Assembly (NCBI RefSeq): GCF_900142175.1 | Contig: NZ_FQZX01000001.1 | Location: 682,001-746,000 of the forward strand | Reading direction: 5' to 3' | Length of the DNA stretch: 64,000 nt | DNA from: Maribacter aquivivus | GTDB taxonomy: Bacteria > Bacteroidota > Bacteroidia > Flavobacteriales > Flavobacteriaceae | Shown: positions 12,122 through 46,190 of the stretch, piece by piece | How the letters are laid out: each line of letters begins with the position of its first letter | Position numbering within the stretch: position 1 is the first letter of the stretch | Notes under the pieces: generated by a model | Told to the model about the DNA's origin: nothing | The model's database searches: none | What the model saw: the letters and a program-made list of their open reading frames with translations, nothing else | Translations under genes and position numbers: made by a program

Positions 12122-12206
12122 TACATTTAGAGCTACCATAGCATAAGTAGGTTAAGTTCATGGTAAGATTTGGGGCAAAAAAGGTGGAGGTTTCTCCACC
12201 TTTTTT
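12122..12206 (+). ncRNA. Family 1 small RNA, copy 1 of 5
   Basis: Self-contained small RNA unit. A TACATTTA box (12122-12129) resembles the TAnnTTTG promoter. A 41-base core follows at 12135-12175, then a terminator stem GGTGGAG/CTCCACC (12183-12200) and a T-run. Core positions 1-5 (ACCAT) and 26-30 (ATGGT) can pair around a 20-base loop that shows GTAGGTTAAG; a tail with AAGATTTGGGG follows. Transcription should start near the core, giving an RNA of about 70-75 bases. There is no open reading frame with a plausible start. The terminator stem differs from copies 2-4 while the core is identical. Confidence 0.8.
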
Positions 12207-12319
12207 ATTTGTCATATTTTTCCTCTCTACCAAGTTGTAATCCGTTTCTTCACAAAGCTCTTTTTAACGTTATTACGAGACTTTCAGCCAATACCTTTTA
12301 CATTCACTACCAAGCCTAT

Positions 12320-12402
12320 TACATTTACAGAACCATAGCATAAGTAGGTTAAGTTCATGGTAAGATTTGGGGAAAAGGACGGAGCAATGCTCCGTCTTTT
12401 TA
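12320..12402 (+). ncRNA. Family 1 small RNA, copy 2 of 5
   Basis: Box TACATTTA at 12320-12327, with TTTT 20 bases upstream. The core at 12332-12372 is identical to copy 1. The terminator stem GACGGAGC/GCTCCGTC (12378-12396) is followed by T. It lies 197 bases from copy 1. Its upstream region contains TGTAATCCGTTTC (12236), close to an element upstream of both family 2 copies but at a different distance. Copies 2, 3 and 4 also share sequence after the terminator, so they arose by duplication of a unit of about 200 bases. Confidence 0.8.
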
Positions 12403-12521
12403 TTTTACAGCCATTTCTAACTTCTCAACAACACAAAATCTTCCTAAACTTTCAATTCTAGCATTACAACTTAAGTTTGCGACGTACAACGAATAGCTTT
12501 TTGTAATACCCCGTATGCATA

Positions 12522-12603
12522 TACATTTACAGAACCATAGCATAAGTAGGTTAAGTTCATGGTAAGATTTGGGGAAAAGACGGAGCAATGCTCCGTCTTT
12601 TTA
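12522..12603 (+). ncRNA. Family 1 small RNA, copy 3 of 5
   Basis: Box TACATTTA at 12522-12529 with TTTG 18 bases upstream, the best promoter of the five. The core at 12534-12574 is identical to copies 1, 2 and 4. Terminator stem GACGGAGC/GCTCCGTC (12579-12597), then T-run. It lies 202 bases from copy 2. Upstream blocks TTACAAC (12464) and ACAACGAATAG (12486) recur at nearly the same distances in front of family 2 copy A. Confidence 0.82.
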
Positions 12604-12720
12604 TTTTACAGCCATTTCTAACTTCTCATCCACAAAATCTTCCTGAATTTTTAATTCTAGTAGTACAACCTAAGTTTGTGACGTACAACGAATAGCTTTT
12701 TATAAAACCCCGTATGCCTA

Positions 12721-12802
12721 TATATTTACAGAACCATAGCATAAGTAGGTTAAGTTCATGGTAAGATTTGGGGAAAAGACGGAGCAATGCTCCGTCTTTT
12801 TA
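12721..12802 (+). ncRNA. Family 1 small RNA, copy 4 of 5
   Basis: Box TATATTTA at 12721-12728. The core at 12733-12773 is identical to copies 1-3. Terminator stem GACGGAGC/GCTCCGTC (12778-12796). It lies 199 bases from copy 3. Its upstream region, including AATAGCTTTTTATAAAAC, closely follows copy 3 and also family 2 copy A (AATAGTTTTATAAAAC). Confidence 0.82.
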
Positions 12803-12806
12803 TTTT

Positions 12807-12927
12807 ATACCAATTGGCTTATAAAACAACTAGTTAGCCCCAATGACCCACCCCTAGTAAAACATCTTCGTTGAAATAAAAGTTTATATTTTTCTTAAAA
12901 ATCCTTTTTTTATTTACTCAATACCAG
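12807..12927. other. Spacer between sRNA copies 4 and 5
   Basis: AT-rich sequence without a gene, apart from the weak -33 region of copy 5. The whole 12030-13092 gap holds only the five RNA units, the purF 3' hairpin, the sodA terminator and such spacers; no credible protein gene is present on either strand. Confidence 0.6.
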
Positions 12928-13011
12928 TAATTTAGTCTCGCCATAGCATAAGTAGGTTAAGTTTATGGTAAGATTTGGGACGAAAAGGGTGGAGACTTCT
13001 CCGCCCTTTTC
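12928..13011 (+). ncRNA. Family 1 small RNA, copy 5 of 5 (divergent)
   Basis: The most diverged copy, 207 bases from copy 4. The promoter box is weaker (TAATTTAG). The core at 12940-12980 has three changes: A1 to G (keeping a G-U pair in the ACCAT/ATGGT stem), C25 to T in the loop, and the last G to A. GTAGGTTAAG and AAGATTTGGG are untouched. The terminator stem GGGTGGAG/CTCCGCCC (12987-13006) differs from all other copies but still pairs, with one G-U. This supports selection on RNA rather than simple repeat copying. Confidence 0.75.
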
Positions 13012-13021
13012 TATTTTAAAA

Positions 13022-13058
13022 CCAAAAAAACCACCCATGAATAATTCATAAGTGGTTT
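13022..13058 (-). terminator. Terminator of sodA
   Basis: Read on the minus strand, AAACCAC plus ATGAAT pair with ATTCAT plus GTGGTTT, followed by a T-run. It lies 35 bases after the sodA stop and faces the terminator of sRNA copy 5. Confidence 0.8.
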
Positions 13059-13092
13059 CCTACAAGATAGTTAAGAATATTTCTACTCTTTA

Positions 13093-13701
13093 TTATTTGT
13101 TACTTGCGTATCTTTTTGAAACTTCATCCCAGTTAATGATATTGAAAAATGCTTCAATATAATCTGGTCTCTTGTTTTGATAATTTAGGTAATAAGCATG
13201 TTCCCATACATCTAAACCTAAGATTGGTTGACCTCCACATTCAACTCCTGGCATTAATGGATTGTCTTGATTTGGTGTAGAACATACTTCTACTTTACCC
13301 CCTTTATGAACACATAACCATGCCCAACCAGAACCAAATCTTGTACCTGCAGCAGTTGTAAACTTATTTTTGAATTCTTCGAAAGAACCAAAAGCACTAT
13401 CAATTGCAGTTGCTAATTCGCCACTTGGCTTTCCACCACCGTTTGGTGATAAGATTGTCCAGAATAATGAGTGATTGTAAAATCCACCACCGTTATTTCT
13501 AACCGCACCATTGCTCATATCCAAGCCAGTTAAAATAGCCTCTATAGACTTCCCTGCAAGATCGGTACCTTCTATAGCAGCATTTAATTTAGATGTATAT
13601 CCTTGGTGATGTTTTGTATGATGTATTTCCATTGTCCTTGCATCAATATGAGGCTCAAGAGCATCATAGGCGTAAGGCAATTTTGGTAGTTCAAAAGCCA
13701 T
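13093..13701 (-). CDS. sodA: Superoxide dismutase, Fe/Mn type
   Basis: Converts superoxide to hydrogen peroxide and oxygen, probably in the cytoplasm since no signal peptide is seen. The 202-residue length is usual. Metal ligands are His in [12 protein letters not shown], His in [13 protein letters not shown], and Asp plus His in [12 protein letters not shown]. Sequence alone does not settle iron versus manganese, so the symbol is provisional. It has its own promoter (perfect TAnnTTTG box) and terminator, and sits next to the small RNA array. Confidence 0.96.
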
Positions 13702-13737
13702 AATTTATGTATTTTTAGATTAATATTAATTGTATCT

Positions 13738-13745
13738 CAAAGTTA
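13738..13745 (-). promoter_or_regulatory. -7 promoter box for sodA
   Basis: The minus strand reads TAACTTTG, a perfect TAnnTTTG, 37 bases before the sodA start codon. Confidence 0.6.
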
Positions 13746-13820
13746 CGTATTTTAACATTTATATTCATGTAATAATTTGTTAAGAACTGTACAGGAATCC
13801 TTAATTTGCGGTAAAAATCA

Positions 13821-16800
13821 GTGTCAAGTAATTCTTTTACCATATACAATGCTTCTGCCGGATCAGGCAAAACCTATGCTCTTGCTAAGGTTTACTTGAA
13901 AATTATACTAGCCTCTCCGCAAAATTTCAGAAAAATATTAGCTATTACATTTACTAACAAAGCAGTAAATGAGATGAAACATAGAATATTGAACAGCCTG
14001 TTCGAGTTTTCTAAAATCACTTCTACGGAAGATGCCAATCCGTTATTTAATGACATCCTAAACGAAACCAGTTATACTTTTGAAGAACTACCAGCGTTAA
14101 GCAAACTTCGCTTAAAGCAAATACTACATAACTACGCCTTTTTTGATATTTCTACCATAGATAAGTTTACCCACAGACTCATTAGAACTTTCGCTAAAGA
14201 TTTGAAGATCCCTCAGAATTTTGAGGTTGTTCTTGATGTAGATCTACTTTTACAAGAAGCTGTTGAGCGTGTTATTAGTAAAGCTGGTGAGGACCCTGAG
14301 TTTACCAAAGTACTTTTAGATTTTGCCATTGAAAAAATTGAGGATGACAGAAGTTGGGATATTGGGTTTGATCTTTTAAAAATCGGTAAACTGATATTTG
14401 ATGAAAACAACGCCGAACATTTAAAACATTTACAAGAAATAGAATTAGGAGATTTTCTAAAGTTGCAAACGCATCTTAAAAAAGAAACCAAAACTTTAGA
14501 GAAAAAAATTGTAGACCTTGCTACTGCTGCTCTTGACGTAATCACTTCATCTGGCTTAGATTTAAAAGATTTCCCTAGAGAAACATTACCAAATCACTTT
14601 AAAAAAATAGTGGCTGGCAACTTTACACCTACACAACTCTACAATAACAAACTAGAGGATAATTTAATTGAGGGGAAAATAGTAAAAGCCACCGTTAAAA
14701 ATGCACCAGCAGAATTAGCACCTCAGCTACTTCATCATTATCAAGCTATAAAACAGCTTATTTATAAAAGGGGATTGTATGCGAACATCAACAGAAACAT
14801 TATTCCTTTTGCGTTACTAAATGCGATACAAAAAGAACTGAAGATTATTCAAGAAGAAAAAGACCAATTGTCTATTTCTGAATTTAATACCTTAATTGCA
14901 AAAGAGGTCAAAGACCAACCTGCACCTTTTATTTATGAGCGACTTGGAGAAAAGTATCGTCATTATTTCATTGACGAATTTCAAGATACTTCGCAAATGC
15001 AATGGGAAAACCTTATTCCTTTAATTGGTAGCGCCATGGAGGGTGAAGATGAATTAGGCGGTACAGGATCTTTGTTTTTGGTGGGCGACCCAAAACAAGC
15101 AATTTATAGATGGCGTGGTGGTAAAGCTGAACAATTTCTTGAATTGGCAACACACCAAGCACACCCATTCACCATTCAATCAGACCTGGTTACTTTGCCA
15201 AAAAACTACAGAAGTTATGCAGAGATCATTAACTTCAATAACAACTTTTTTCAAAGTATTAGTCCGTTTTTAGAGAACGACATTTATCAAGAATTCTTTA
15301 AAATTGGCAATACACAAGAAACCAATCAGAAAGAAGGTGGCTACGTAAATATTTCATTATTAGAAGAAGACACCGATGAAGAATATGCAGCGAACACATT
15401 GGCAACTATTCAACAATGTTTAAGCCAAGGGTATACCTATAGCGATATCTGTATTATTATAAGAAAGAAAAAGCATGGTCTTCTGCTGGCAGATTTTTTA
15501 ATGCAGCATAAAATTCCTGTTGTTTCTTCAGATTCCTTATTGCTTAGTGAAAGTGCCAAAGCTATTTTCTTGGTACAATTAATAAGGTATATGGTTCAAC
15601 CTACAGAACTAGAGATCCAATATGAGATTTTGAATTTTCTGTCGGAAGGAAAAAATGATAAGCATGCCTATATCTATGAGAATTTAGGAAAACTTAATTC
15701 GCACCTTTTTGAATCTTATGGTTTTGATGCATCTAAACTAAGACAAGCGTCAGTTTTTGACGGATTGGCTTATGCCATAAAAACCTTTGATCTTATCCCT
15801 ACTTCAGATGCTCACCTTTCTGCTTTTATGGATCTCGTTTTTGATGTAGAGCAAAAATATGGCTCAGATATGCAGTCCTTTTTAGATTATTGGGACAAGA
15901 AAGGCAACTCGGCAAGCATCAGCACACCCGAAAATATTGAATCGGTACAGATTATGACCATTCATAAATCTAAAGGGTTAGAGTTTCCGGTAGTTATTTT
16001 CCCTTATGCAAATTCAAACGTGTATGAAGAGATCGATCCAAAATTATGGCTTCCGGTAAACAAAGAAGAATTCCTTGGCTTTTCCGAAGTACTTATCAAT
16101 AAAAAACAAGAAGTTCAAGAATACGGTGAACTTGAATCATTGCTGTATGAAATAGACCATCAGAAATTGCAGCTAGATGCTTTCAACCTTTTATATGTAG
16201 TGCTTACAAGAGCGGTTAATGCCCTGTTTATTATTAGCGCCAACAAACTTGACAGAAAAGGAGAACACAATACCAATAGTTACTCTGGTCTGTTCATACA
16301 TTTTTTAAAGAGTATAGGCGAATATCAACAAGACAAACTATCATACGACTTTGGTAAATTAATACCACAGACATCTAAAAAACAAACCAGTACAGATCAA
16401 CTTACTATACCTTATATATATACTAACATAAATAGACCGGATTTTAAGATACTTGCATTAGCTGGTACTTTATGGGATGAAGGCTTAGATGTTGCCATTA
16501 ATCAAGGCAATGTTATACATTATATATTAGGTGCTATTTTCACAACTACAGATTTAGATAGAGCTGTACAAATGGCGCTACAAAAAGGATTGATAAAAGA
16601 GCAAGAAGTAAACGGGATAAAGGAAATTGTAAAAAAGGTCATCTTTCATAAAGATTTGACGCAATTTTACCAGAATGATGTTGAAGTACTAAATGAACGT
16701 GATTTATTAATGGCAGATGGTACGGTTCAAAGACCAGATAGGGTGGTGATTAAAAATAACCACGCTACCATTATAGATTATAAGACAGGCGAACAAAACC

Positions 16801-16916
16801 CAAAATACCATCATCAAATAAATACGTATGCCCAGAGTTTTTCAAATATGGGCTACACCATAGATCATAAGATCATTGTGTATATTAATACTGAAATAGA
16901 ACTAGATTATATATAA
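13821..16916 (+). CDS. AddA-like helicase-nuclease (UvrD/RecB family)
   Basis: Likely large subunit of an AddAB-type enzyme that processes double-strand breaks for recombination and degrades foreign linear DNA. It has 1031 residues from a GTG start. Helicase motifs in order: NASAGSGKTYAL (Walker A), ITFTNKAVNEMKHR (Ia), YFIDEFQDTSQMQ (Walker B), DPKQAIYRWRGG (III), and IMTIHKSKGLEFPVVIF with LLYVVLTRA (V-VI). A PD-(D/E)XK nuclease motif lies near the C-terminus: RPDRVV then IIDYKTGEQ. The AddB-like partner lies 2.7 kb downstream, after kbl and ompA. kbl follows after 6 bases, so addA and kbl are co-transcribed. Confidence 0.92.
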   Translation: MSSNSFTIYNASAGSGKTYALAKVYLKIILASPQNFRKILAITFTNKAVNEMKHRILNSLFEFSKITSTEDANPLFNDILNETSYTFEELPALSKLRLKQILHNYAFFDISTIDKFTHRLIRTFAKDLKIPQNFEVVLDVDLLLQEAVERVISKAGEDPEFTKVLLDFAIEKIEDDRSWDIGFDLLKIGKLIFDENNAEHLKHLQEIELGDFLKLQTHLKKETKTLEKKIVDLATAALDVITSSGLDLKDFPRETLPNHFKKIVAGNFTPTQLYNNKLEDNLIEGKIVKATVKNAPAELAPQLLHHYQAIKQLIYKRGLYANINRNIIPFALLNAIQKELKIIQEEKDQLSISEFNTLIAKEVKDQPAPFIYERLGEKYRHYFIDEFQDTSQMQWENLIPLIGSAMEGEDELGGTGSLFLVGDPKQAIYRWRGGKAEQFLELATHQAHPFTIQSDLVTLPKNYRSYAEIINFNNNFFQSISPFLENDIYQEFFKIGNTQETNQKEGGYVNISLLEEDTDEEYAANTLATIQQCLSQGYTYSDICIIIRKKKHGLLLADFLMQHKIPVVSSDSLLLSESAKAIFLVQLIRYMVQPTELEIQYEILNFLSEGKNDKHAYIYENLGKLNSHLFESYGFDASKLRQASVFDGLAYAIKTFDLIPTSDAHLSAFMDLVFDVEQKYGSDMQSFLDYWDKKGNSASISTPENIESVQIMTIHKSKGLEFPVVIFPYANSNVYEEIDPKLWLPVNKEEFLGFSEVLINKKQEVQEYGELESLLYEIDHQKLQLDAFNLLYVVLTRAVNALFIISANKLDRKGEHNTNSYSGLFIHFLKSIGEYQQDKLSYDFGKLIPQTSKKQTSTDQLTIPYIYTNINRPDFKILALAGTLWDEGLDVAINQGNVIHYILGAIFTTTDLDRAVQMALQKGLIKEQEVNGIKEIVKKVIFHKDLTQFYQNDVEVLNERDLLMADGTVQRPDRVVIKNNHATIIDYKTGEQNPKYHHQINTYAQSFSNMGYTIDHKIIVYINTEIELDYI

Positions 16917-16922
16917 AGGAAT

Positions 16923-18116
16923 ATGTACGGAAAAATTAAAGAACATCTGCAGCAAGAAATTGAGAACATTAAAAATGACGGACTCTTTAAAGAGGAAAGA
17001 ATTATTGTTTCTCCGCAAGATGCTGTTATCAAAATCAATACCGGGCAAGAGGTTATCAATTTTTGTGCTAATAATTATTTAGGGCTTTCATCTCACCCAG
17101 ATGTTATACAGGCGGCTAAAGATGCTATGGATACGCATGGCTTCGGTATGTCTTCTGTTAGATTTATTTGTGGTACTCAAGATATACATAAGACATTAGA
17201 AGCAAAGATCGCTCATTTCTATGGTACAGAAGACACCATATTATATGCCGCTGCTTTTGATGCCAATGGCGGGGTGTTTGAACCTTTGCTAAATGCAGAA
17301 GATGCTATTATTTCTGATTCTTTAAACCACGCCTCTATTATTGACGGTGTGCGTTTGTGTAAAGCAAAGCGTTACCGTTATGCGAATAGTGACATGCAAG
17401 ATTTAGAAGCACAACTTATTAAAGCGAATGAAGACTGCGCACGATTTAAAATTATTGTTACCGACGGTGTGTTCTCTATGGATGGTATTGTAGCTCCACT
17501 AGATAAAATTTGTGATCTAGCCGATAAGTACGATGCTTTAGTTATGATAGATGAATGCCATGCTACCGGATTTATAGGTGAAAAAGGAAAAGGCACCTTA
17601 GAGGAAAAAGGAGTGATGGGCAGAATTGACATTATTACCGGTACACTTGGTAAAGCATTAGGTGGTGCCATGGGCGGTTACACTACTGGTAAAAAAGAAA
17701 TAATTACATTACTTAGACAACGATCTAGACCGTATTTGTTCTCTAACTCTTTAGCGCCAGCTATAGTAGGGGCATCTATTAAGGTATTTGATATGTTAGA
17801 AAACGACACTTCGTTACGAGATAAATTGCAAGAAAATACTGCATACTTCAAAAAAGGCATTAAAAACGCAGGTTTCGACATTGTTGACGGAGATTCTGCA
17901 ATAGTACCTGTAATGTTGTACGATGCCAAATTATCACAAGACATGGCAAATAAGTTGTTGGAAAGAGGAATTTATGTGATTGGTTTTTTCTATCCTGTAG
18001 TACCAAAAGATAAGGCTCGCATTAGAGTGCAACTATCTGCTGCGCATACAAAAGAACACTTAGATGCAGCCATCAAAGCATTTACAGAAGTCGGAAAAGA
18101 ATTAAAAATCGTTTAA
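16923..18116 (+). CDS. kbl: Glycine C-acetyltransferase (2-amino-3-ketobutyrate CoA ligase)
   Basis: PLP enzyme that splits 2-amino-3-oxobutyrate with CoA into glycine and acetyl-CoA, the second step of threonine breakdown. It has 397 residues. Key segments are [23 protein letters not shown] and the PLP-lysine motif [15 protein letters not shown], typical of alpha-oxoamine synthases. The close match to [16 protein letters not shown] at the N-terminus and to the motif spacing favours Kbl over BioF or serine palmitoyltransferase. No threonine dehydrogenase gene is in this window. Confidence 0.93.
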
Positions 18117-18165
18117 ATGCAATATTTAATCTATTAAATGCATTAAAAAAAATAGGAAATTGATT

Positions 18166-18195
18166 TTGTTAATAATATTTAACAAGTTACATTTG
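18166..18195 (+). promoter_or_regulatory. Promoter of ompA-like gene
   Basis: TTG at 18166-18168, 19 bases, then TACATTTG at 18188-18195. This is an exact match to the TTG-N19-TAnnTTTG Bacteroidota promoter, followed by a leader of about 30 bases. Confidence 0.8.
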
Positions 18196-18229
18196 CAGCT
18201 AATAAACACTTAAACTTAAAATTTAATAC

Positions 18230-19573
18230 ATGAAACATCTTAGCAAATTATTGGCAGTTGCCCTACTTGTAGTAGGTATCAACAGCATACAAGCGCAAGA
18301 CGAGAATAACCCTTGGCAAGTGCAATTTGGGGTTAATGCCATTGACGTATATCCAACTTCGGATGTAAGTTCTTTCGGTAACGAATTCTTCAATGTGAAC
18401 GATCACTGGAACATTTTACCTTCTATCTCTTATGTAGGAGTATCTAAGTCAATTGGAGATGGTTTCTCTGTTGGAGCTAGAGGTTCTCTTAACAAGATTA
18501 GCAAATTTGGTGATACTAGCGTTGACGACCTTTCTCACTACGCTATAGATGGTACAATTAAATATGATATCATAAAAAGACAAACTGTTATTGATCCTTT
18601 CGTAGAGATCGGTGGTGGTTATACTTGGATCGATGAAATCGGTGCTGGTACTGCAAATGGTGGTATTGGTGTTAATATCTGGTTTACTGAAAACTTAGGT
18701 CTTACATTACAATCTTCTTATAAGCATGCTTTCGAAGATTACTTAGCTCCTCACTTCCAACACTTAGCTGGTATTTCAGTTAAATTTGGTGGTACTGATA
18801 CTGACGGTGATGGTATCTATGATAAAGATGATGCTTGTCCAGAAGTTGCTGGTCTTGAAGCATTCAACGGTTGTCCTGATTCTGACGGCGATGGTATCGA
18901 AGACAGCAAAGATGCTTGTCCTAACGAAGCTGGTTCTAAAGAAATGAACGGATGTCCTGATGCTGACGGTGACGGTGTTGCTGATAAAGATGATGCTTGT
19001 CCTAACGAAGCTGGTCTTCCTGCTTTAGCTGGTTGTCCTGATGCTGATGGCGATGGTGTTGCTGATAAAGATGACGCTTGTCCTTCTGAAGCTGGTCCTG
19101 CTGAAAACAAAGGTTGTCCTTGGGCTGATAAAGACGGTGACGGTGTACTTGACAAAGATGATCAATGTCCAGATGTTGCTGGTACAGTAGCTAACGCTGG
19201 TTGTCCTGAAGTAACTGAAGAAGTTCAAAAGCAATTGAATGATTATGCTAGAACTATCTTATTTGATACTGGTAAATCTTCTATCAAAGCTGAGTCTACT
19301 TCTGTAATGGTTGACATTATCACAATCCTTAAAGAATACCCTAACGCTAAGTTTACTGTTGAAGGTCATACTGACAGCGTAGGTAGCGAAAAATTAAACC
19401 AAAGCCTTTCTGAGTCAAGAGCTCTTTCTGTAAAAGAATTCTTAGTAGACAAAGGAATTGAAGAGTTTAGATTATCTGCTGTAGGTTACGGTGAGTCTAA
19501 GCCAATGGCTACAAACAATACAAGAGCTGGTAGAGCTCAAAACAGAAGGGTAGAAATCAACTTAGTAAAATAA
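18230..19573 (+). CDS. OmpA-family outer-membrane protein with TSP type 3 repeats
   Basis: Abundant structural outer-membrane protein that ties the outer membrane to peptidoglycan. It has 447 residues: signal peptide (about 1-22, ending IQAQ), a beta-barrel to about residue 185, then five calcium-binding thrombospondin type 3 repeats of the form DxDGDGxxDxDDxCP. The C-terminal OmpA/MotB domain runs from about 335, with [14 protein letters not shown] and [10 protein letters not shown]. It has an exact consensus promoter and a very strong terminator, and codon use is markedly uniform in the repeats, all consistent with high expression. Confidence 0.96.
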
Positions 19574-19606
19574 GTTTATAAAAACCTAAGTGTTTTAATA
19601 ACTAAA

Positions 19607-19632
19607 AGCCCCGCAATATTGCGGGGCTTTTT
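19607..19632 (+). terminator. Terminator of ompA-like gene
   Basis: AGCCCCGCAAT and ATTGCGGGGCT form a perfect 11-bp palindrome followed by a T-run. The AddB-like start codon is only 15 bases further on. Confidence 0.92.
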
Positions 19633-38733: not shown

Positions 38734-38736
38734 AAA

Positions 38737-38760
38737 AAGGCTCCCATAACTGGAAACCTT
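38737..38760 (-). terminator. Terminator after tRNA-Ala
   Basis: On the minus strand AAGGTTTCC, loop AGTTAT, GGGAGCCTT, then a run of T. It starts only a few bases after the tRNA 3' end. Confidence 0.8.
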
Positions 38761-38766
38761 TTTACG

Positions 38767-38840
38767 TGGAGAATACCGGATTCGAACCGGTGACCTCTTG
38801 CCTGCCAGGCAAGCGCTCTAGCCAACTGAGCTAATCCCCC
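38767..38840 (-). tRNA. tRNA-Ala (anticodon GGC)
   Basis: A 74-base cloverleaf on the minus strand. The acceptor stem GGGGGAT/ATTCTCC has the alanine identity pair G3-U70 (third base pair is G-U), with discriminator A. The D arm is TAGCTCAGTTGGCTAGAGC, the anticodon loop CTGGCAG between CTTGC and GCAAG (anticodon GGC, reading GCC), and the T arm CCGGTTCGAATCCGG. CCA is not encoded. Confidence 0.97.
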
Positions 38841-38977
38841 TTTATTTTATCTTTCCTTCAATTTAATTAGGAATGATTTTCCCAAATGCTTTCGGAACGC
38901 ACAAGAAAACTATGCTAATCCCCCGCTTTTCAAGAAGTTCAAAGAAAATACATTTTAGTATGCTAACAAAGTACTAC

Positions 38978-39775
38978 TTAATCTTTCTTTACACTAAGCA
39001 CCAATACCGGTACAGGGGCATAAAACTCTGATTTTGAAATGGTACTCTTTTCCCATAATTTCTTGAAAAAACCACGTTTTCTTCTAAAAACACACAATAA
39101 ATCGGGTTGTTTTGCTTGAAAATGCTCTAAAACGCCATGATACGTTGTTGAGTTTTCTGTAAAGGTCAACTGCGAAGAAATGTCCATCAATGCCGTATTT
39201 ATCTTTAAATCGTCATCTGAATATCCGGGAGTTTTCACCATCAATAAATTTACATTGGCGTTGTGCTTATTCTTCATCTCAATTAATGGATCAAGAATTC
39301 TCTTTCTTTTTAGAATACCAGATTTAAAAGCAACCAATATATTTTTAAACGACTTATACGCTGTTCCTTTTGGTACGATCAATGTTGGTATGTTTGTTCT
39401 TTTTATAATGGCTCCTGAAGTTTGCCCTAAATAATTCTCTTCTTTAATATCATTACTTCTAGGCGCCAGTATAATTAAATCTATACCAATACCCTTATCA
39501 ATTTCTTTTAGTCCGTCTTTTAGCTCACCGTTAAAACTTGCTATTTTTATAGAGACGTCTTTTGTATCTACTGTACCGACTATTTCCTTTAATCTTTCCT
39601 TTGAATTATCGGCTACCTTTTGTGTTATATTGGCAAGCGTTCCTGTTTTTCCGCTGACATTAAAAACTTCCATTACATATATTTCTGCACCAAAGTCTTG
39701 TGCAAAATCTACTGCATATTGTAATGTTTGATTCGCATTTGAGGAGGTCCCGATCGGAACAAGAATATTCATCAT
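38978..39775 (-). CDS. Universal stress protein, two Usp-like halves
   Basis: A 265-residue cytoplasmic protein. The first half is a UspA domain (NILVPIGTSSNANQTLQYAV to IIKRTNIPTLIVP). The second half starts YKSFKNILVAFKSG and is a degenerate Usp repeat ending STISKSEFYAPVPVLVL. I do not see a complete ATP-binding G-2x-G-9x-G(S/T) motif. Probably involved in stress survival; partners unknown. Divergent from the GNAT gene at 39829. Confidence 0.9.
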   Translation of the reverse strand: MMNILVPIGTSSNANQTLQYAVDFAQDFGAEIYVMEVFNVSGKTGTLANITQKVADNSKERLKEIVGTVDTKDVSIKIASFNGELKDGLKEIDKGIGIDLIILAPRSNDIKEENYLGQTSGAIIKRTNIPTLIVPKGTAYKSFKNILVAFKSGILKRKRILDPLIEMKNKHNANVNLLMVKTPGYSDDDLKINTALMDISSQLTFTENSTTYHGVLEHFQAKQPDLLCVFRRKRGFFKKLWEKSTISKSEFYAPVPVLVLSVKKD

Positions 39776-39828
39776 GATAAAAAGTGTTGATTATACCTCT
39801 AAATTTACAATTTAATTAAATCGCTTTT

Positions 39829-40329
39829 ATGATAGCACCGGCAAAGATATCGCAAATACCCAAAATTCTTAAAATGACAGATGCTTGTAGAATTGCTATG
39901 GAAGCCAATGGTATTTACCAATGGACGACCGATTACCCTTCTAAACTGGCATTTGAAAATGACATAGGTCGCAATGAACTTTATGTGCTTCAAATTGATA
40001 ACGAAATAGTAGGTTGTATTGTTGTTTCTCTTCTTATGGATGAAGAATACACTTCTGTAAACTGGCTAACAGAAAATGTAAACAACTACTATATTCATCG
40101 CCTAGCAGTGCACCCTAAATATCAAAGCAAAGGTTTTGCCCAACGTTTAATGGACTTCGGCGAAAGTTTTGCCAGAGAAAACAATGCCGTATCCGTTAGG
40201 TTAGATACCTTTAGCCAGAACAAAAGAAATCAGAAATTTTACGAGCAACGTGGTTATACCAAATTAGGAGATATCTTTTTTCCAAAACAAAGTGAACATC
40301 CTTTTCATTGCTACGAACTTGTACTATAG
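39829..40329 (+). CDS. GNAT-family N-acetyltransferase
   Basis: A 166-residue acetyl-CoA-dependent acetyltransferase. The acetyl-CoA binding motif is HRLAVHPKYQSKGFAQRLMD, followed by helix 4 and NQKFYEQRGYTKLG. Substrate unknown. The MATE transporter gene begins 12 bases after its stop, so they are co-transcribed. Confidence 0.92.
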   Translation: MIAPAKISQIPKILKMTDACRIAMEANGIYQWTTDYPSKLAFENDIGRNELYVLQIDNEIVGCIVVSLLMDEEYTSVNWLTENVNNYYIHRLAVHPKYQSKGFAQRLMDFGESFARENNAVSVRLDTFSQNKRNQKFYEQRGYTKLGDIFFPKQSEHPFHCYELVL

Positions 40330-40341
40330 AAACTATATTTT

Positions 40342-41676
40342 TTGAAAACTTCCGTTAACTTCAAATCTATAAATGCTTTAGCTATTCCCGCTACTATTGC
40401 CGGTATTGCCGAACCTTTATTGTCCATTACAGATACAGCCATTGTAGGGAACATTCCTGTTGACGGATTAGAGTCTCTTGCCGCAGCAGGTATTGTAGGT
40501 TCTTTTCTTTCTATGCTAATCTGGATTCTTGGGCAAACGCGTAGTGCTATATCTTCCATTATTTCACAGTACTTAGGTGCCGGTAAATTAGAAGCCGTTA
40601 AAACCCTGCCCGCGCAGGCTATTTACCTCAACATTGCTTTGAGTATTCTGGTTTTGCTATCTACCATTTTTGTTGTTCAAGAAATCTTTGAACTTTTAAA
40701 TGCTAAAGGAAAAATATTGCAATACTGTATTAGTTACTACTCCATTCGAGTTTGGGGATTTCCATTAACCTTATTCGTTTTCGCGGTGATGGGTATTTTC
40801 CGCGGATTACAGAACACCTATTGGCCCATGGTCATTGCTATTACAGGAGCGGTCTTGAACGTTATTCTTGATTTTGCCTTTGTATATGGTATTGAAGGAT
40901 TCATCCCTGCCATGTATTTAGAAGGTGCCGCCTATGCCAGTTTGTTGGCACAAGCGATAATGGCAATCATGGCATTCTATTTACTTTTAACGAAGACCGA
41001 TATTAGCCTAAAACTAAAATTACCTGTTCACCAAGAACTTGGTCGTTTGGTAGTCATGAGCTTAAATTTATTTGTTCGTGCCATTGCCTTGAACACTGCG
41101 CTTATTCTTGCCGTTAGAGAAGCTACCGCACTTGGTGATAAATACATAGGGGCGCATACCATTGCCATAAACCTATGGCTTTTCTCCGCATTTTTTATAG
41201 ATGGCTACGGTGCGGCAGGTAATATTATGGGCGGCAGGTTATTAGGGGAACGCAATTATGACGGACTCTGGTTATTGGCTAAAAAGATTACGAAATACGG
41301 TCTCATTGTTAGCCTGGTCATTATGGCTTTGGCTACTATTTTCTACAAACCATTGGGTAGCTTATTTTCTAATGAGCCTTTGGTGCTTTCTGCTTTTTAC
41401 GGCATCTTCTATATTATTATTCTGGGGCTTCCGTTTAATAGCACTGCCTTTGTTTTAGATGGAGTTTTTAAAGGTCTTGGTGAAATGAAATATTTACGAA
41501 ATACCTTGCTTGTAGCTACTTTTTTAGGCTTTGTGCCCATGCTATTTTTAGGCAAATATCTTCACTGGGGATTAACAGGCATATGGCTTGCTTTCACCGT
41601 TTGGATGTTTATTAGAGGTGGTGCATTAGTATGGAAATTCAGAAACAAATTCAAACCTTTATTGCAAAATCCGTAA
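40342..41676 (+). CDS. MATE-family efflux transporter
   Basis: A 444-residue inner-membrane antiporter with twelve predicted helices in two pseudo-repeats; SITDTAIVGNIP in helix 1 and the second half starting near LFVRAIALNTALI are MATE-like. It exports cationic drugs or metabolites in exchange for Na+ or H+. It begins at a TTG (KTSVNFKSINALAIPATIAG) 12 bases after the acetyltransferase gene; no ATG lies at a suitable place. Confidence 0.93.
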   Translation: MKTSVNFKSINALAIPATIAGIAEPLLSITDTAIVGNIPVDGLESLAAAGIVGSFLSMLIWILGQTRSAISSIISQYLGAGKLEAVKTLPAQAIYLNIALSILVLLSTIFVVQEIFELLNAKGKILQYCISYYSIRVWGFPLTLFVFAVMGIFRGLQNTYWPMVIAITGAVLNVILDFAFVYGIEGFIPAMYLEGAAYASLLAQAIMAIMAFYLLLTKTDISLKLKLPVHQELGRLVVMSLNLFVRAIALNTALILAVREATALGDKYIGAHTIAINLWLFSAFFIDGYGAAGNIMGGRLLGERNYDGLWLLAKKITKYGLIVSLVIMALATIFYKPLGSLFSNEPLVLSAFYGIFYIIILGLPFNSTAFVLDGVFKGLGEMKYLRNTLLVATFLGFVPMLFLGKYLHWGLTGIWLAFTVWMFIRGGALVWKFRNKFKPLLQNP

Positions 41677-41745
41677 TTTTGTATCAGCTACTTCAAGACA
41701 AATCTCGAAGTATGTAATCTCGATTATCGAGTAAAATAAAATGCT

Positions 41746-42513
41746 ATGGTCACTTCAAGAAAAAATGGAAGTTTATATACACGAATAGATGGTAAAGTTG
41801 CTCATGTAGAGTTTGGGCATCCTGCTAGTAATTCATTCGTTTCTGAACTTCTAGAACGCTTAACAGACACTATTAATGAGCTTTCTGAAGATGAGGTCGT
41901 ATCTGTTATCCTATTAAAATCTGAAGGAGAAAAAGCTTTTTGTGCCGGTGCTTCTTTTGATGAGTTACTTGAAGTTTCTAATCTTGAAGAAGGTAAAGCA
42001 TTTTTTAGCGGTTTTGCCCATGTCATTAATGCCATGCGTACGTGTAAAAAGGTAATTGTAGGTCGTGTACATGGTAAAACTGTTGGTGGTGGCGTAGGTC
42101 TTGCCGCTGCTTGTGATTATGTGTATTCTAATGTAAATGCATCAATTAAACTATCAGAACTTAGTATTGGTATTGCTCCTTTAGTAATTGCCCCTGCTGT
42201 AGCTCGTAAAATAGGTACTGCCGCTATGGGCGAAATGTCTTTAGCACCTACCGAATGGAAAAGCGCATATTGGGCTCAAGAAAAAGGCTTGTTCAATAAA
42301 GTGTACGACTCTGCACAAGAAATGGACAAGGAACTTGATTTCTTCATTCACAAATTGGCCAGCTATAATGCTGATGCTTTAACTGAATGGAAGAAAGTTT
42401 TATGGGAAGGTACCGACCATTGGGATACCTTATTGACAGAACGCGCAGCGATCACCGGAAAATTAGCCCTTTCTGATTTTACTAGAAACGCTCTGTCAAA
42501 ATTTAAAAAATAA
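41746..42513 (+). CDS. Enoyl-CoA hydratase/isomerase family protein
   Basis: A 255-residue crotonase-fold enzyme. Oxyanion-hole segments are CAGASFDELLE and GRVHGKTVGGGVGLAAACD, with an active-site glutamate in KLSELSIGIAP. The C-terminal part is more divergent. It acts on acyl-CoA thioesters, perhaps in fatty-acid or amino-acid breakdown, with the exact substrate unknown. It is followed after 44 bases by a small membrane-protein gene. Confidence 0.9.
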   Translation: MVTSRKNGSLYTRIDGKVAHVEFGHPASNSFVSELLERLTDTINELSEDEVVSVILLKSEGEKAFCAGASFDELLEVSNLEEGKAFFSGFAHVINAMRTCKKVIVGRVHGKTVGGGVGLAAACDYVYSNVNASIKLSELSIGIAPLVIAPAVARKIGTAAMGEMSLAPTEWKSAYWAQEKGLFNKVYDSAQEMDKELDFFIHKLASYNADALTEWKKVLWEGTDHWDTLLTERAAITGKLALSDFTRNALSKFKK

Positions 42514-42557
42514 ACAATAACTGAAACAGCCTTTCGTTCTGTTTCTAAATAATTAGT

Positions 42558-42671
42558 ATGGATTTCTTTCAATTTTTAAACGGTAACCTAGTATTTCCAG
42601 TTCTTGCACTATCTGTTTTGATCATTTATTTCGTAAACAAAATGCGCGCAAAGAAGAAATACAAGAGGTAA
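42558..42671 (+). CDS. Small single-helix membrane protein (37 residues)
   Basis: A short open frame starting ATG at 42558. The product MDFFQFLNGNL is followed by a hydrophobic helix VFPVLALSVLIIYFV and a basic tail NKMRAKKKYKR, ideal for a single-pass protein with the C-terminus inside. It sits in a 213-base gap between the crotonase and lipoprotein genes, same strand. Coding status rests on the clean topology and basic tail; no family is recognised. Confidence 0.6.
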   Translation: MDFFQFLNGNLVFPVLALSVLIIYFVNKMRAKKKYKR

Positions 42672-42726
42672 TTCAACACCCTACGCAACTAATCGGTATT
42701 CGAGCATCTTGTAAAAAACCAGTTTT

Positions 42727-43155
42727 ATGTTCGCAAAAATCACATTAGTTTTTCTATCTATATTTCTTGTTGCCTGTAACGACAAAGACGATTCTATTGA
42801 ACAACAAGATTGTTCTACGGCTATATGCACCCTAAATTTTGTTACCATTACGGTCAGTGTAATAGACGCATCGGGCGAAGCTATTGCATTAGATAGTTAT
42901 GAGGTCATAGATACTGAAACAGGTAAAAACATAGCTGAAGATTTTAACGGCGAAGAATATCAATACCTTAAAGAGCAAGGTTTCTACCCTATTCTTAGTG
43001 ATGCCAATCGTATTCAATACCAAAATACTACGGCAACACTTACTTTCAAAGGCTTTATTGCTGCTGAAGAGGTCATCACTGAAGATTATGAAGTTGGTGC
43101 AGACTGTTGCCACGTTAGCTTAATCACTGGAAATACCGAGATTGTTTTAGAATGA
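42727..43155 (+). CDS. Small lipoprotein of unknown function
   Basis: A 142-residue lipoprotein: signal FAKITLVFLSIFLVAC (Cys17), acidic tether NDKDDSIEQQ, then a beta-rich domain with cysteines in DCSTAIC and DCCHVSL that may form disulfides in the periplasm. The order FVTITVSVIDASGEAI suggests an Ig-like or carboxypeptidase-regulatory fold. Function unknown. Confidence 0.8.
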   Translation: MFAKITLVFLSIFLVACNDKDDSIEQQDCSTAICTLNFVTITVSVIDASGEAIALDSYEVIDTETGKNIAEDFNGEEYQYLKEQGFYPILSDANRIQYQNTTATLTFKGFIAAEEVITEDYEVGADCCHVSLITGNTEIVLE

Positions 43156-43186
43156 TTTCTCTATATAAATCCTTTTAAAGATTCCC

Positions 43187-43194
43187 TACCTTTG
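43187..43194 (+). promoter_or_regulatory. -7 promoter box for QueD-like gene
   Basis: TACCTTTG, a perfect TAnnTTTG, 17 bases before the start codon at 43212. Confidence 0.55.
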
Positions 43195-43211
43195 CCATAT
43201 AATTATAGGCT

Positions 43212-43661
43212 ATGAGCAATATTCGTATTACCAAACAATTCAATTTTGAAACGGGACATGCACTTTACGGTTATGACGGTAAATGTAGAAATGTGCACGG
43301 TCATAGCTATAAATTATCCGTAACCGTTATTGGCAGACCTATTACAGACACCAGCCACGTAAAATTAGGAATGGTGATAGATTTTGGTGATCTAAAGAAA
43401 ATAGTCAAAGAAGATATCGTTGATATTTTTGATCATTCTACGGTATTCAATAAAAACACACCTCATGTTGAACTTGCCAAAGAATTAACTGATAGAGGAC
43501 ACAGTGTTATTTTGGCAGATTACCAACCTACTAGTGAGAATATGGTAATCGATTTTGCAGCGAAAATTAAATCTCGCCTTCCAGAGAACATTTCATTATT
43601 CTCTTTAAAACTGCAAGAAACAGATACTTCTTTTGCAGAATGGTATGCTAGTGATAATTAA
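43212..43661 (+). CDS. queD: 6-carboxytetrahydropterin synthase (QueD/PTPS family)
   Basis: Makes 6-carboxytetrahydropterin from dihydroneopterin triphosphate, an early step to queuosine in tRNA. It has 149 residues; the zinc ligands are His16, His29 and His31 in ETGHALYG and VHGHSYKL, and Cys25 is the catalytic cysteine. SLKLQETDTSFAEWY near the end holds the conserved Glu of the pterin site. No other queuosine gene is nearby, so a broader PTPS-like role is possible. Confidence 0.9.
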   Translation: MSNIRITKQFNFETGHALYGYDGKCRNVHGHSYKLSVTVIGRPITDTSHVKLGMVIDFGDLKKIVKEDIVDIFDHSTVFNKNTPHVELAKELTDRGHSVILADYQPTSENMVIDFAAKIKSRLPENISLFSLKLQETDTSFAEWYASDN

Positions 43662-43744
43662 GTTCAACAAAACTTAACCTTTTACTTTCTTTACAAGCTT
43701 ATAAATTGTTTTATTTTTAGGGTAATTCCTTAATATATAACAAC

Positions 43745-44731
43745 ATGACCAAGCATCATATTTACTGGTGGAATCTTGAAAACCTGTTCGATGTAGAAAA
43801 TTCTCCCAGACGAAGTGAATTTTTAAACAACCACTTGGGTAAGGAACTCGACGGATGGAGTGCTGCTATTCTAGACCAAAAAATAGCCAATCTAACAGCT
43901 GTTATTTCAAAATTCAATAACGGTGAAGGTCCAGATATATTGGGTGTTTGTGAGGTAGAAAACGAGTATGTTATTGAGCTACTTATAGATGCCATGAGTG
44001 CTGCCTTAAATAAGAACTACGGTTTTGTAATTTCTGAAGGTGATGATAAAAGAGGTATTGACACTGCCCTTATTTATGATAAAACCAAATACGGACCAGA
44101 ACAGCAAACGTTTAGTCTACGTATTATAAAAAAAAATACGACCAGAGATTTGTTTCAAGTTCATATCAATACTGCCAATGGCAATAAGCTGGTATGTGTA
44201 CTTAACCATTGGCCATCTAGATCTGGTGGTGAACTCGAAAGCGAGCCATTTAGAATTATGGTTGCCGAAAATTTATCATATTGGATAGAGAGAATTTACG
44301 AAGAGCAAGGCGATGATGCCAATATTATATTAATGGGCGATTTTAATGATAACCCATATAACAAGAGTATTACAGCATATTTAAAGGCTATTAATAACAA
44401 AGCCTTGGTGAAAAGTAATAGAGTGCGCCTAAAGTACTTCTATAATGTAATGCATAGATTTTTAGATGCTCAAATAGGCACATTCGTATTCGGTAATGAA
44501 TACAACATGCTTGATCAGTTTATGATTTCTAAAAGTATTTTATCAGAGAAATCAGAATTACCTTTTAAATTAAGTACTGCAGAAATCATTGCCTACCCTG
44601 AGCTCACTTCTGGATCTTACCAAAAACCGGTAAAGTTTGGTAGACCAAATTCATCTACATTTAACGAAAAAGGATTTAGTGATCACCTACCAATAAAAAT
44701 GGTATTGAACGAGAAAGATACTGCCGTTTAA
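43745..44731 (+). CDS. Endonuclease/exonuclease/phosphatase family protein
   Basis: A 328-residue metal-dependent phosphodiesterase of the EEP fold. Motifs in order: WWNLENLFD, GVCEVENEYV (metal-binding Glu), NHWPSRSGG, MGDFNDNP (Asp and Asn) and SDHLPI (final Asp-His). No signal peptide is seen. It could act on DNA, RNA or a phosphorylated small molecule; the substrate is not clear from sequence. Confidence 0.9.
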   Translation: MTKHHIYWWNLENLFDVENSPRRSEFLNNHLGKELDGWSAAILDQKIANLTAVISKFNNGEGPDILGVCEVENEYVIELLIDAMSAALNKNYGFVISEGDDKRGIDTALIYDKTKYGPEQQTFSLRIIKKNTTRDLFQVHINTANGNKLVCVLNHWPSRSGGELESEPFRIMVAENLSYWIERIYEEQGDDANIILMGDFNDNPYNKSITAYLKAINNKALVKSNRVRLKYFYNVMHRFLDAQIGTFVFGNEYNMLDQFMISKSILSEKSELPFKLSTAEIIAYPELTSGSYQKPVKFGRPNSSTFNEKGFSDHLPIKMVLNEKDTAV

Positions 44732-44805
44732 TTTAGAATAGCATTCTCTTATTTTGATGTGTGTATTCCCTAGGTACGCAAAACAGTTATTATATTTACA
44801 TCCTG

Positions 44806-45570
44806 ATGACGAATATTGAACTTCCTGCAGGAAAAAAAGTATATTTTGCTAGTGATAACCACCTAGGTGCACCTACTATGGAAGAAAGTAGGTTGAGAGA
44901 ATTGAAGTTTATTCGCTGGCTAGATACGATCAAGTCTGATGCCGGAGTGATTTTCTTAATGGGCGATTTGTTCGATTTTTGGTTTGAATACACCACCGTT
45001 ATCCCAAAAGGATTTACTAGAACACTTGGGAAACTTGCAGAACTTTCTGATGCCGGCATTCAAATACAGTACTTTGTAGGTAACCACGATCTTTGGATGA
45101 ATGGTTACTTTGAAGAAGAATTAAATATACCTGTATACCACAAACCTCAGCAGTATTCTATAAACGGAGCTTCCTTCTTTGTTGGGCATGGTGACGGACT
45201 AGGACCGGACGATAAGGGCTTTAAAAGAATGAAGAAGGTATTTACCAACCCTCTAGCCAAATGGTTCTTTAAATGGCTTCACCCAGATATTGGTGTTCGT
45301 TTAGCAAAACACCTTTCTGTAAGCAATAAATTAATCAGTGGTGATGATGATGCCAAGTTCTTAGGTGAAGACAAAGAATGGCTGGTGCTATATGCCAAAC
45401 GAAAGTTAGAAACTCAACATTATGACCATTTCATTTTTGGTCATAGACATCTTCCTTTAGAAATAGAATTGAAAGAAAATTCAAAATATACCAATCTTGG
45501 AGATTGGATCAATTACTACACCTATGCAGAGTTTGACGGCAAGCAACTTTCATTGAAAGAATTCAGCTAA
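44806..45570 (+). CDS. lpxH: UDP-2,3-diacylglucosamine diphosphatase
   Basis: Peripheral membrane phosphoesterase of lipid A synthesis: hydrolyses UDP-2,3-diacylglucosamine to lipid X and UMP. I start it at the ATG at 44806 (254 residues, MTNIELPAGKK) because the preceding 15 codons lie over the promoter-like TATATTTA. Calcineurin-type metal motifs: ASDNHLGAP, LMGDLFDFW, VGNHDLWM, GHGDGLG and IFGHRHLP. A 640-base noncoding region with the family 2 small RNAs follows. Confidence 0.92.
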   Translation: MTNIELPAGKKVYFASDNHLGAPTMEESRLRELKFIRWLDTIKSDAGVIFLMGDLFDFWFEYTTVIPKGFTRTLGKLAELSDAGIQIQYFVGNHDLWMNGYFEEELNIPVYHKPQQYSINGASFFVGHGDGLGPDDKGFKRMKKVFTNPLAKWFFKWLHPDIGVRLAKHLSVSNKLISGDDDAKFLGEDKEWLVLYAKRKLETQHYDHFIFGHRHLPLEIELKENSKYTNLGDWINYYTYAEFDGKQLSLKEFS

Positions 45571-45608
45571 ATTTCAGCAAAAACATCGACAAAATACACA
45601 AATTTAAT

Positions 45609-45686
45609 TGTAATCCTTTTCTTACAACATAAATTAAGCAGTTCACAACAATAGTTTTATAAAACTAGTTCTTCGTTATATCTTTA
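45609..45686 (+). promoter_or_regulatory. Promoter and upstream blocks of family 2 copy A
   Basis: TGTAATCCTTTTC (45609), TTACAAC (45622), TTCACAACAATAGTT (45642) and the TATCTTTA box (45679-45686). The TGTAATCC and TTCACAAC blocks lie exactly 70 and 37 bases before the box, the same distances as in copy B. The TTACAAC and ACAAC-ATAG blocks also match the regions in front of family 1 copies 3 and 4. A shared activator site is likely. Confidence 0.65.
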
Positions 45687-45809
45687 CAGTGTTATTAAGT
45701 TTAAGTGTTGAACCCAAATCTTCGCATTACCTACAAGTTTCCCTAGCTTAAAACCCAAATTTTAAGTGTACCTATTTTAAAGAATAGCCCCTATTTTAGG
45801 GGCTTTTTC
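45679..45809 (+). ncRNA. Family 2 small RNA, copy A
   Basis: Transcription should start near 45691, giving about 118 bases. The 5' part reads GTTATTAAG-TTTAAGTGTTGA, then CCCAAATCTT (45713-45722), six bases later ACCTAC, then a hairpin with stem CTTAAAA (45747-45753) and TTTTAAG (45760-45766) showing CCCAAA in its loop, then ACCTA again. The terminator stem AGCCCCTA/TAGGGGCT (45786-45804) plus T-run ends it. No protein-coding frame fits. Confidence 0.8.
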
Positions 45810-45810
45810 G

Positions 45811-45989
45811 TTGTTTTAATTTTTTTTCTTAAATGATAATTATTCAAGTTTAAAAAAATCTTATGCATTTTTAAAAAGGGATATGGTATACAATCACACT
45901 TCAGAAAAACAAATAATTTACATTTTTTATATGATGTCTTTTTTTTACAAAATCAGACTAATTAAAGTTAAAAATACTATCAAACAACA
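45811..45989. other. Spacer between family 2 copies
   Basis: Very AT-rich sequence with no gene or hairpin that I can support; it separates the terminator of copy A from the conserved upstream blocks of copy B. Confidence 0.5.
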
Positions 45990-46067
45990 TGTAATCCTTT
46001 TCCTACATGTTAAAAATGACACTTCACAACAAAAGTTAGTGTAAACTACCAATTGATGATACCTTTA
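45990..46067 (+). promoter_or_regulatory. Promoter and upstream blocks of family 2 copy B
   Basis: TGTAATCCTTTTC (45990), TTCACAACAAAAGTT (46023) and the TACCTTTA box (46060-46067), at the same spacing as in copy A. Conservation at fixed distance amid diverged sequence points to protein-binding sites. Confidence 0.65.
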
Positions 46068-46190
46068 CATTGTTGTTAAGATTAAGTGTTGATTCCCAAA
46101 TCTACAGTTACCTAAAAGTTCCCCCGCTTAATGACCCAAACATTAAGCATCACCTACAATAAAAAAAGCCCCTAATTAGGGGCTTTTTTT
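46060..46190 (+). ncRNA. Family 2 small RNA, copy B
   Basis: Same plan as copy A. CCCAAATCT at 46095-46103, six bases, ACCTA; then a perfect 8-bp hairpin GCTTAATG (46126-46133)/CATTAAGC (46141-46148) with loop ACCCAAA; then ACCTAC; then the palindromic terminator AGCCCCTAATTAGGGGCT (46167-46184) and T-run. Compared with copy A, the stem bases have changed on both sides so that pairing is kept while the loop is constant. The terminator's A-run side may also end the MFS gene on the other strand. Confidence 0.82.

Follow-up and report, generated by a model that had tools for sequence, protein, structure and literature searches.

Two families of short intergenic repeats, F1 and F2, lie in a stretch of 64,000 nucleotides (nt) from Maribacter aquivivus (RefSeq assembly GCF_900142175.1, contig NZ_FQZX01000001.1, positions 682,001 to 746,000; the whole stretch is called the window below). 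Both look like small RNA (sRNA) genes and they carry complementary blocks, which raises the question of whether the two RNAs act on each other, and to what end. F1 comprises five direct repeats at about 12135–13010 on the plus strand, each specifying an RNA of about 70 nt, and F2 comprises two units on the same strand (Table 1). We conclude that F1 is probably a trans-acting repressor of messenger RNAs (mRNAs) for envelope proteins and F2 a sponge for F1, a reading that rests on comparative sequence analysis. The initial annotation had proposed a regulator with its sponge or, alternatively, two RNAs acting on each other; the former fits best, because the site mimicked by F2 recurs where unrelated genes for envelope proteins have their start codons. 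Little is known of how Flavobacteriaceae control genes post-transcriptionally. F1 offers a predicted bipartite start-codon site, a predicted sponge and candidate targets (lipoproteins, a Por-secretion-tail protein, a metallopeptidase and CreD), and the tuning of the flavobacterial surface would thereby become directly testable with reporters.

F1 structure and complementarity to F2

F1 is an intergenic unit with a terminator, conserved as an RNA gene. All five copies contain both blocks that had been described as invariant, with GTAGGT beginning 18 bases upstream of AAGATTTGGG in each. RNAalifold analysis of loci from relatives predicted a 5' hairpin with GUAGG in its loop, a single-stranded AAGAUUUGGG and a terminator. 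Single-sequence folding likewise placed GTAGG in the 5-nt apical loop of a longer hairpin, rather than in the 20-base loop drawn initially. The predicted unpaired probabilities in three F1 copies were 0.84–0.85 for GTAGGT and 0.98–0.99 for AAGATTTGGG. GTAGGT belongs to an extended block, CATAAGTAGGT, which is the complement of ACCTACTTATG.

Elsewhere in the window, AAGATTTGGG has a single exact complement, CCCAAATCTT, which starts at 45713 (plus strand) in F2 copy A and has ACCTAC after it at 45729. F2 copy B has CCCAAATCT at 46095 and ACCTA at 46110. The two collinear blocks were thus read correctly at the outset, in position and in letters, except that the spacing is not the same in the two copies: from block start to block start it is 16 bases in copy A and 15, one base shorter, in copy B. 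Each copy has a second module. That of copy A (CCCAAATTTT at 45754, ACCTA at 45770) lies in the second hairpin, which is able to pair with the AAGATTTGGG block with one G-U pair, as had been claimed; that of copy B consists of CCCAAA at 46135 and ACCTAC at 46152. The F2 blocks have predicted unpaired probabilities of 0.59–1.00.

How far chance could produce these matches was estimated by comparing dinucleotide-shuffled F2 with the 39-nt F1 core. The 10-mer of copy A was reached in 8 of 2000 shuffles and its two collinear blocks of 16 nt in 4 of 2000; the corresponding values for copy B were 27 of 2000 (9-mer) and 25 of 2000 (two blocks, 14 nt). An earlier figure of about once in a hundred is about right for the pair alone. 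The window evidence by itself is suggestive and not overwhelming, and the comparative data described below make the complementarity far stronger. The F1–F2 complementarity is real and above chance.

F1 complements at the start codons of envelope-protein genes

The F1 complement runs on as CCCAAATCTT...ACCTACTTATG, and the F1 region to which F2 is complementary is also complementary to mRNA start sites. In the source genome, four ACCTACTTATG sites lie outside F1. Three of them are preceded by CCCAAAT and stand at the start of genes, which encode a lipoprotein of 125 amino acids (aa; G000:C1:1863967), a secreted protein and an SCSKDADLLSEYV lipoprotein; the fourth opens a frame of 22 aa. Like sites precede homologs in G003, G022, G024 and G033 (genomes and loci are cited by our own G and L numbers) and, with CCCAAAG, in G284. 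Homologous lipoproteins keep the site across genera.

A strict target pattern, CCCAAATN{4,34}ACCTACTTATGA (that is, CCCAAAT-n-ACCTACTTATGA), matched 24 times in a sample of 299 Flavobacteriaceae genomes, the sites falling in 22 genomes from 18 genera, and the reversed pattern never matched. The A-ended form of the pattern excluded all F1 variants, and the D-ended form did not. In the window, F2 is the only such site. A frame opens at each of the 24 ATGs; 23 of these frames have at least 100 aa and one has 33 aa. The encoded proteins fall into 11 groups by BLAST links, the 24 rows not being independent of each other. A hydrophobic N-terminus was found in 24 of 24 candidate target proteins and in 18 of 60 window open reading frames (ORFs) of at least 100 aa, and a lipobox-like cysteine in 17 of 24 and 6 of 60, respectively, by simple rules of our own and not a published predictor, which tempers their weight in favor of an envelope regulon. 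Pfam analysis of nine of these candidate proteins revealed Big_9, CAP, Por_Secre_tail, Peptidase_M57, CreD and PKD domains in six and no match in three. One pattern search gave, among the matches listed, 18 rows other than F1: 8 antisense to F1b (a paralog described below), 7 ORFs of at least 100 aa and 3 ORFs of 10, 29 and 33 aa. Complementary sites are therefore present at the translation starts of several unrelated mRNAs, above control. Genes that start with ...ACCATGAA and have CCCAAATC upstream are a possible second class of F1 sites.

These observations suggest the following mechanism. F1 would be a multicopy trans-acting sRNA with two exposed seeds, CAUAAGUAGGU (partly in the hairpin loop) and AAGAUUUGGGG (in the single-stranded linker), which would pair together with a bipartite site, CCCAAAUC...ACCUACUUAUG, covering the start codon. 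Because pairing of both seeds would cover the start codon, a block of translation initiation would follow naturally for the paired mRNAs, which encode lipoproteins and other predicted secreted or membrane proteins. F2 would be an independently transcribed, terminator-bearing RNA consisting of one to three copies of the target site without the AUG. Since F2 offers such a site up to three times, it is expected to bind F1 in the cell and to draw it off its mRNAs, as a sponge. A dedicated promoter carrying a CACAACA direct repeat would turn F2 on and off, and induction of F2 would free the F1 regulon from repression.

F1 in relatives and the paralog F1b

The pattern with both F1 blocks occurs in 36 of 60 relatives, namely in 35 of 36 Maribacter genomes, in the single genome of a sister genus and in none of the 23 genomes from other families. 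Among the matches listed, the 39-mers differ by one C/T only, and a few further F1 copies (L003 and L029) have other changes in the 5' part. The terminators and the upstream DNA vary between copies and species. When the 299 Flavobacteriaceae genomes were searched with an F1 model (R1), F1 was present in 240 of them, from 193 of 236 genera, and a single genome could have as many as 7 matches. At the level of the order, 13 of 119 genomes matched R1, 11 of them from the same family; the matches outside the family (G052 and G418) were dropped because, on reading, they look like terminators only. The exact F1 pattern had no match in viral contigs.

A one-base deletion in F1 (GGTAAGATTTGG to GGTAGATTTGG) was read in about 21 of the 30 first-listed loci (L158–L187), a set from 30 genomes picked mostly for low scores. 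The deletion is a natural test of matching change in the targets. No convincing F2 was seen in genera with the deletion form TAGATTTGGG, genera not being checked one by one; G287 combines the deletion form with a weak match to the F2 model (R2, described below).

Other Flavobacteriaceae genera also have an RNA that we designate F1b, composed of CATAAGTAGGTT, a variable linker, AAATTTGGGGCGAAAA and a terminator. It was found at 8 loci (L273, L275, L276, L281, L283, L285, L286 and L288) and in at least 13 genomes. Across species the linker changes and both seeds stay. At 7 of the 8 loci this linker is predicted to form a hairpin; for L275, the minimum-energy fold of the stretch used pairs otherwise.

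F2 in relatives

A blastn search with F2 copy A matched 27 of the 60 relatives, one match (G048, L057) being spurious. Of the 26 Maribacter loci, 23 keep CCAAATC or CCCAAA plus ACCTA in the matched stretch. The other three have changes in the first module that would leave G-U pairs: ACCTA to GCCTA in L041 and L042, and CCC to CTC in L045. Most of the aligned F2 copies have two modules; L053 and L054 have one. In our alignment of F2 copies (A1), column identity was 0.97, 0.95, 0.78 and 0.91 for blocks 1 to 4, compared with 0.89 for the leader, 0.74 for the linkers and 0.76 for the terminator, figures that are biased in that most sequences were picked with a pattern demanding the blocks; the count over the 26 blastn loci is less biased.

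The F2 model R2 was built from Maribacter alone and without base pairs, so that it is a sequence-only search and may miss distant F2. It matched 34 of the 299 Flavobacteriaceae genomes (29 of 236 genera), compared with 240 for F1 in the same set. Of these 34 genomes, 32 also have an F1 match, and the other two (G122 and G188) carry no F1 complement. Outside Maribacter, 31 genomes have an R2 match; one locus apiece was taken from 27 of these, on the strand given by R2. In 23 of the 27 loci, and in 1 of 27 reversed controls, F1 is matched by two or more complementary blocks, each 7 nt or longer; the blocks reach 16 nt. Because R2 itself contains CCCAAATC and ACCTA, only the blocks against the F1 middle are independent of the search. 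Parts of the complement of the F1 middle (e.g., TGAACTTAACC and CCATGAACTTAACCTA) are included in 17 of the 27 loci, counted from the printed blocks; the Maribacter alignment behind R2 lacks this complement in its consensus. The R2 matches in G122, G188 and G131 (L150, L154 and L155), with at most one block each, were treated as spurious.

Alternative readings and points against the model

Pairing alone does not show titration, and the conserved 5' leader of F2 may have another task, so that F2 could be a second F1-regulated target with a task of its own. We think this unlikely, since the target modules are repeated and F2 has its own promoter-like region and terminator; an effect of dosage also fits the additional F2-like RNAs that follow repeat boxes in G241 and in other genera. 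A reversal of the roles, with F2 regulating mRNAs and the tandem F1 array serving as its multicopy sponge, would suit the excess of F1 copies in the window (5, against 2 of F2). It is very improbable, given that the mRNA start regions carry F2-like sequence, the complement of F1 (the search covered F1-complement sites), that F1 occurs in many genera in which no F2 was detected (240 and 34 genomes, respectively), and that the repeated modules are in F2 and not in F1.

Two further explanations dispense with F1–F2 pairing, and we give both very little credence. On its minus strand, F2 reads GTAGGT-n-AAGATTTGGG, the order of F1, and could be taken for another F1-like RNA that resembles F1 rather than pairing with it; genuine F1 paralogs with changed linkers exist, and the copy B terminator is symmetric enough for both directions. 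However, the CACAACA repeat, the -7-like box and the copy A terminator are in plus-strand order, and the minus strand, on reading, has no terminator after the AAGATTTGGG block, where F1 and F1b have one. F2 moreover has two or three modules and lacks the F1 hairpin, which leaves this homology only a slight chance. We rate slighter still the chance that both RNAs and the mRNA leaders share sites for an RNA- or DNA-binding protein, with complementarity as a by-product, even though RbpB, an RNA-binding protein of Bacteroidota, binds both mRNAs and multicopy sRNAs (PMC11697453, consulted in part). A single-strand motif common to all of them cannot be the explanation, since what F1 has is the reverse complement of the site in the mRNAs and F2. 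The spacing between the blocks differs, being 12 nt in F1, about 5–7 nt in Maribacter first modules and 4–34 nt as searched in mRNAs, a variation that pairing would tolerate and a fixed DNA site would not, and in other genera the complement in F2 continues over the middle of F1.

Several observations weigh against F1 as envelope repressor and F2 as its sponge. The predicted duplexes in the window are modest, with z scores of -2.4 (copy A) and -1.9 (copy B), energies as good being reached in 9 of 500 and 23 of 500 shuffles, respectively. blastn finds F2 in just 26 of the 36 Maribacter genomes, and one Maribacter genome (G008, 83% complete) has F2 and no F1 match. The initial annotation had held that a block changed in one family without a matching change in the other would speak against interaction. 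The complementary strings are kept at 23 of 26 loci, and one-sided change is confined to single modules: the first module of L055 is mismatched (CCCTAAT) while its second keeps CCCAAAT and ACCTA, and second modules have decayed in L038-B, L041-B, L047 and L048 with F1 unchanged. The F1 core is nearly invariant in Maribacter, which leaves no room for compensating change between F1 and F2 to show within that genus. Outside it, 4 of the 27 R2 matches (L135, L150, L154 and L155) have fewer than two blocks. On the target side, ACCTACTTATG alone is not clearly enriched in the source genome (9 sites, 5 of them F1 itself, versus 5 for the reversed form), and exact target sites occur in only 22 of the 299 genomes, compared with 240 for F1, that is to say, most F1-bearing genomes have no target at the strict pattern. 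Our confidence in repression by F1 and titration by F2 is slightly lowered by G008 and the L055 mismatch.

Comparison with known systems

Neither F1 nor F2 reaches an Rfam gathering score; only a transfer RNA in the window does. Sub-threshold Rfam matches (STnc40, sraA, Thr_leader and others) were dropped because, on reading, they fall mainly on the terminator hairpin. The closest studied logic is that of SisA-D and CrfA in Caulobacter crescentus, in which sibling sRNAs act on many mRNAs and a dedicated sponge masks their interaction site (PMC12559287, consulted in part, as for all statements from this source). That system belongs to another phylum and is Hfq-dependent, and the likeness drawn here is one of logic; in Maribacter, F1 copies stand in tandem and F2 has one to three target-mimic modules. 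Qrr and QrrX of Vibrio, named in the same source, likewise pair multicopy sRNA siblings with an RNA sponge, in another phylum and with other RNAs, and are again compared by their logic. The source also names SroC, 3'ETS-leuZ and AgvB/AsxR as sponges that sequester an sRNA; these derive from mRNA or tRNA precursors or are phage-encoded, whereas F2 is an intergenic chromosomal unit.

Within Bacteroidota, the multicopy paralogous sRNAs FopS/GibS of Bacteroides (RF04319) attach close to the start codon of mRNAs for SusC-like surface proteins, whose translation they block, according to the consulted part of PMC11697453; F1 is proposed to act on start regions of envelope-protein mRNAs in a similar way. 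The word "sponge" has no occurrence in the main text of that paper. F1 copy 1 has a local match to FopS at 12157–12210 on the plus strand, UUCAUGGUA(UU)AGAUUU, below the gathering score (22.2 versus 56 bits, E 0.093), and differs from FopS in its predicted 5' hairpin and second seed. The likeness amounts to 15 identical bases around a 2-base gap, equaled in 23 of 20,000 shuffles, for a pair that had been picked out of 4227 scanned families. With six F1 loci from other genera, no match to FopS appeared at E values up to 0.5. The likeness is weak and local, a lead to common ancestry and no more.

In Flavobacterium psychrophilum, the conserved sRNA Rfp18 is predicted to pair through its third stem-loop with mRNAs for secreted proteases and an adhesin, and its loss lowers two protease mRNAs (PMC9723704, consulted in part). 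Rfp18 resembles F1 as a conserved flavobacterial sRNA with predicted mRNA pairing, the comparison being by description only, and F1 may be among the unnamed sRNAs of that study. Among the matches listed from the open PMC literature, subscription papers and supplements lying outside this scope, no description of F1 or F2 was recognized from titles and the starts of abstracts. The sRNA–sponge logic is known; new to our knowledge are the bipartite seeds against the start codon, the AUG-less decoy of modular build, and the phylum.

A broader scenario is speculative and we regard it as doubtful: F1 would be the core of a family-wide envelope regulon sharing a common ancestor with FopS/GibS, and F2 a clade-specific AUG-less decoy under the CACAACA regulator of envelope genes. 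If so, the ratio of F1 to F2 would determine envelope output as a whole. The sponge may have arisen after its sRNA, in one clade, by multiplication of a target mimic.

Upstream repeat, genomic context and other features

Table 1. Coordinates of F1, F2 and associated elements in the window
Feature	Position	Strand	Remarks
F1 copy 1 -7-like element TACATTTA	12122–12129	+	from sequence; similar boxes precede other copies
F1 copy 1: predicted 5' hairpin with GUAGG in loop, single-stranded AAGAUUUGGGG, terminator	12135–12206	+	5' end approximate
F1 seed 1, GTAGGT, copy 1	12147–12152	+	other copies at 12344, 12546, 12745, 12952
F1 seed 2, AAGATTTGGG, copy 1	12165–12174	+	other copies at 12362, 12564, 12763, 12970
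F1 copy 2	12332–12401	+	
F1 copy 3	12534–12602	+	
F1 copy 4	12733–12801	+	
F1 copy 5	12940–13010	+	TTTATGG variant with own terminator type
Direct repeat ACAACA-N12-TTCACAACA upstream of F2 copy A	45624–45650	+	probable transcription-factor site
F2 copy A -7-like element TATCTTTA	45679–45686	+	from sequence
F2 copy A, putative sponge RNA	45688–45808	+	terminator GCCCCTATTTTAGGGGCTTTTT; 5' end approximate
F2-A module 1: CCCAAATCTT-n6-ACCTAC	45713–45734	+	
F2-A module 2: CCCAAATTTT-n6-ACCTA	45754–45774	+	
TTCACAACA half-site upstream of F2 copy B	46023–46031	+	
F2 copy B -7-like element TACCTTTA	46060–46067	+	from sequence
F2 copy B, putative sponge RNA with terminator	46069–46190	+	5' end approximate
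F2-B module 1: CCCAAATCT-n6-ACCTA	46095–46114	+	
F2-B module 2: CCCAAA-n11-ACCTAC	46135–46157	+	

The -7 consensus of Bacteroidota promoters is TAnnTTTG. At F2, a promoter-like box, an upstream repeat and a terminator are present. The F1 array is flanked by what we take, from the translations, to be purF-like and sodA-like genes, and the F2 pair by presumed lpxH-like and MFS-like genes. L222 is a third F2-like unit of the source genome (G000:C1:1030474–1030596, minus strand), with CCCCAAATCG and CCCCAAATTTT blocks, and adjoins a gene that, by its translation, is presumably hflX-like.

With at most one mismatch, ACAACA-N12-TTCACAACA is commoner than its reversed pattern in all 8 genomes searched, clearly so in 7 (17 versus 9 in the source genome; barely, 7 versus 6, in G260). 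Sites with an identical spacer recur across Maribacter genomes. The period of the repeat is 21 bp, and sites include that in the window, others in G000, and L295, L311 and L319. The genes downstream of repeat sites presumably include, as read off their translations, an LRR protein gene, an RNase R-like gene and one of outer-membrane type; further F2-like RNAs also stand downstream of such sites. The CACAACA repeat sites are perhaps the regulon of one transcription factor.

In G241 (C3:620237–621194, L316), which is of another genus, four CACAACA-repeat sites lie about 300 bases apart and F2-like sequence comes after at least two of them; they may form a tandem F2 array. At L302, L309 and L315, the leaders behind CACAACA-repeat sites have stretches resembling CCCAAAT or CCTAC close to short frames; these leaders are perhaps further F1 targets under the F2 regulator.

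The window contains other repeats as well: several copies of the seven-base tandem repeat TTGGCTG at 51095–51169, and 81-base direct repeats encoding Asp-rich repeats at 18792–19209.

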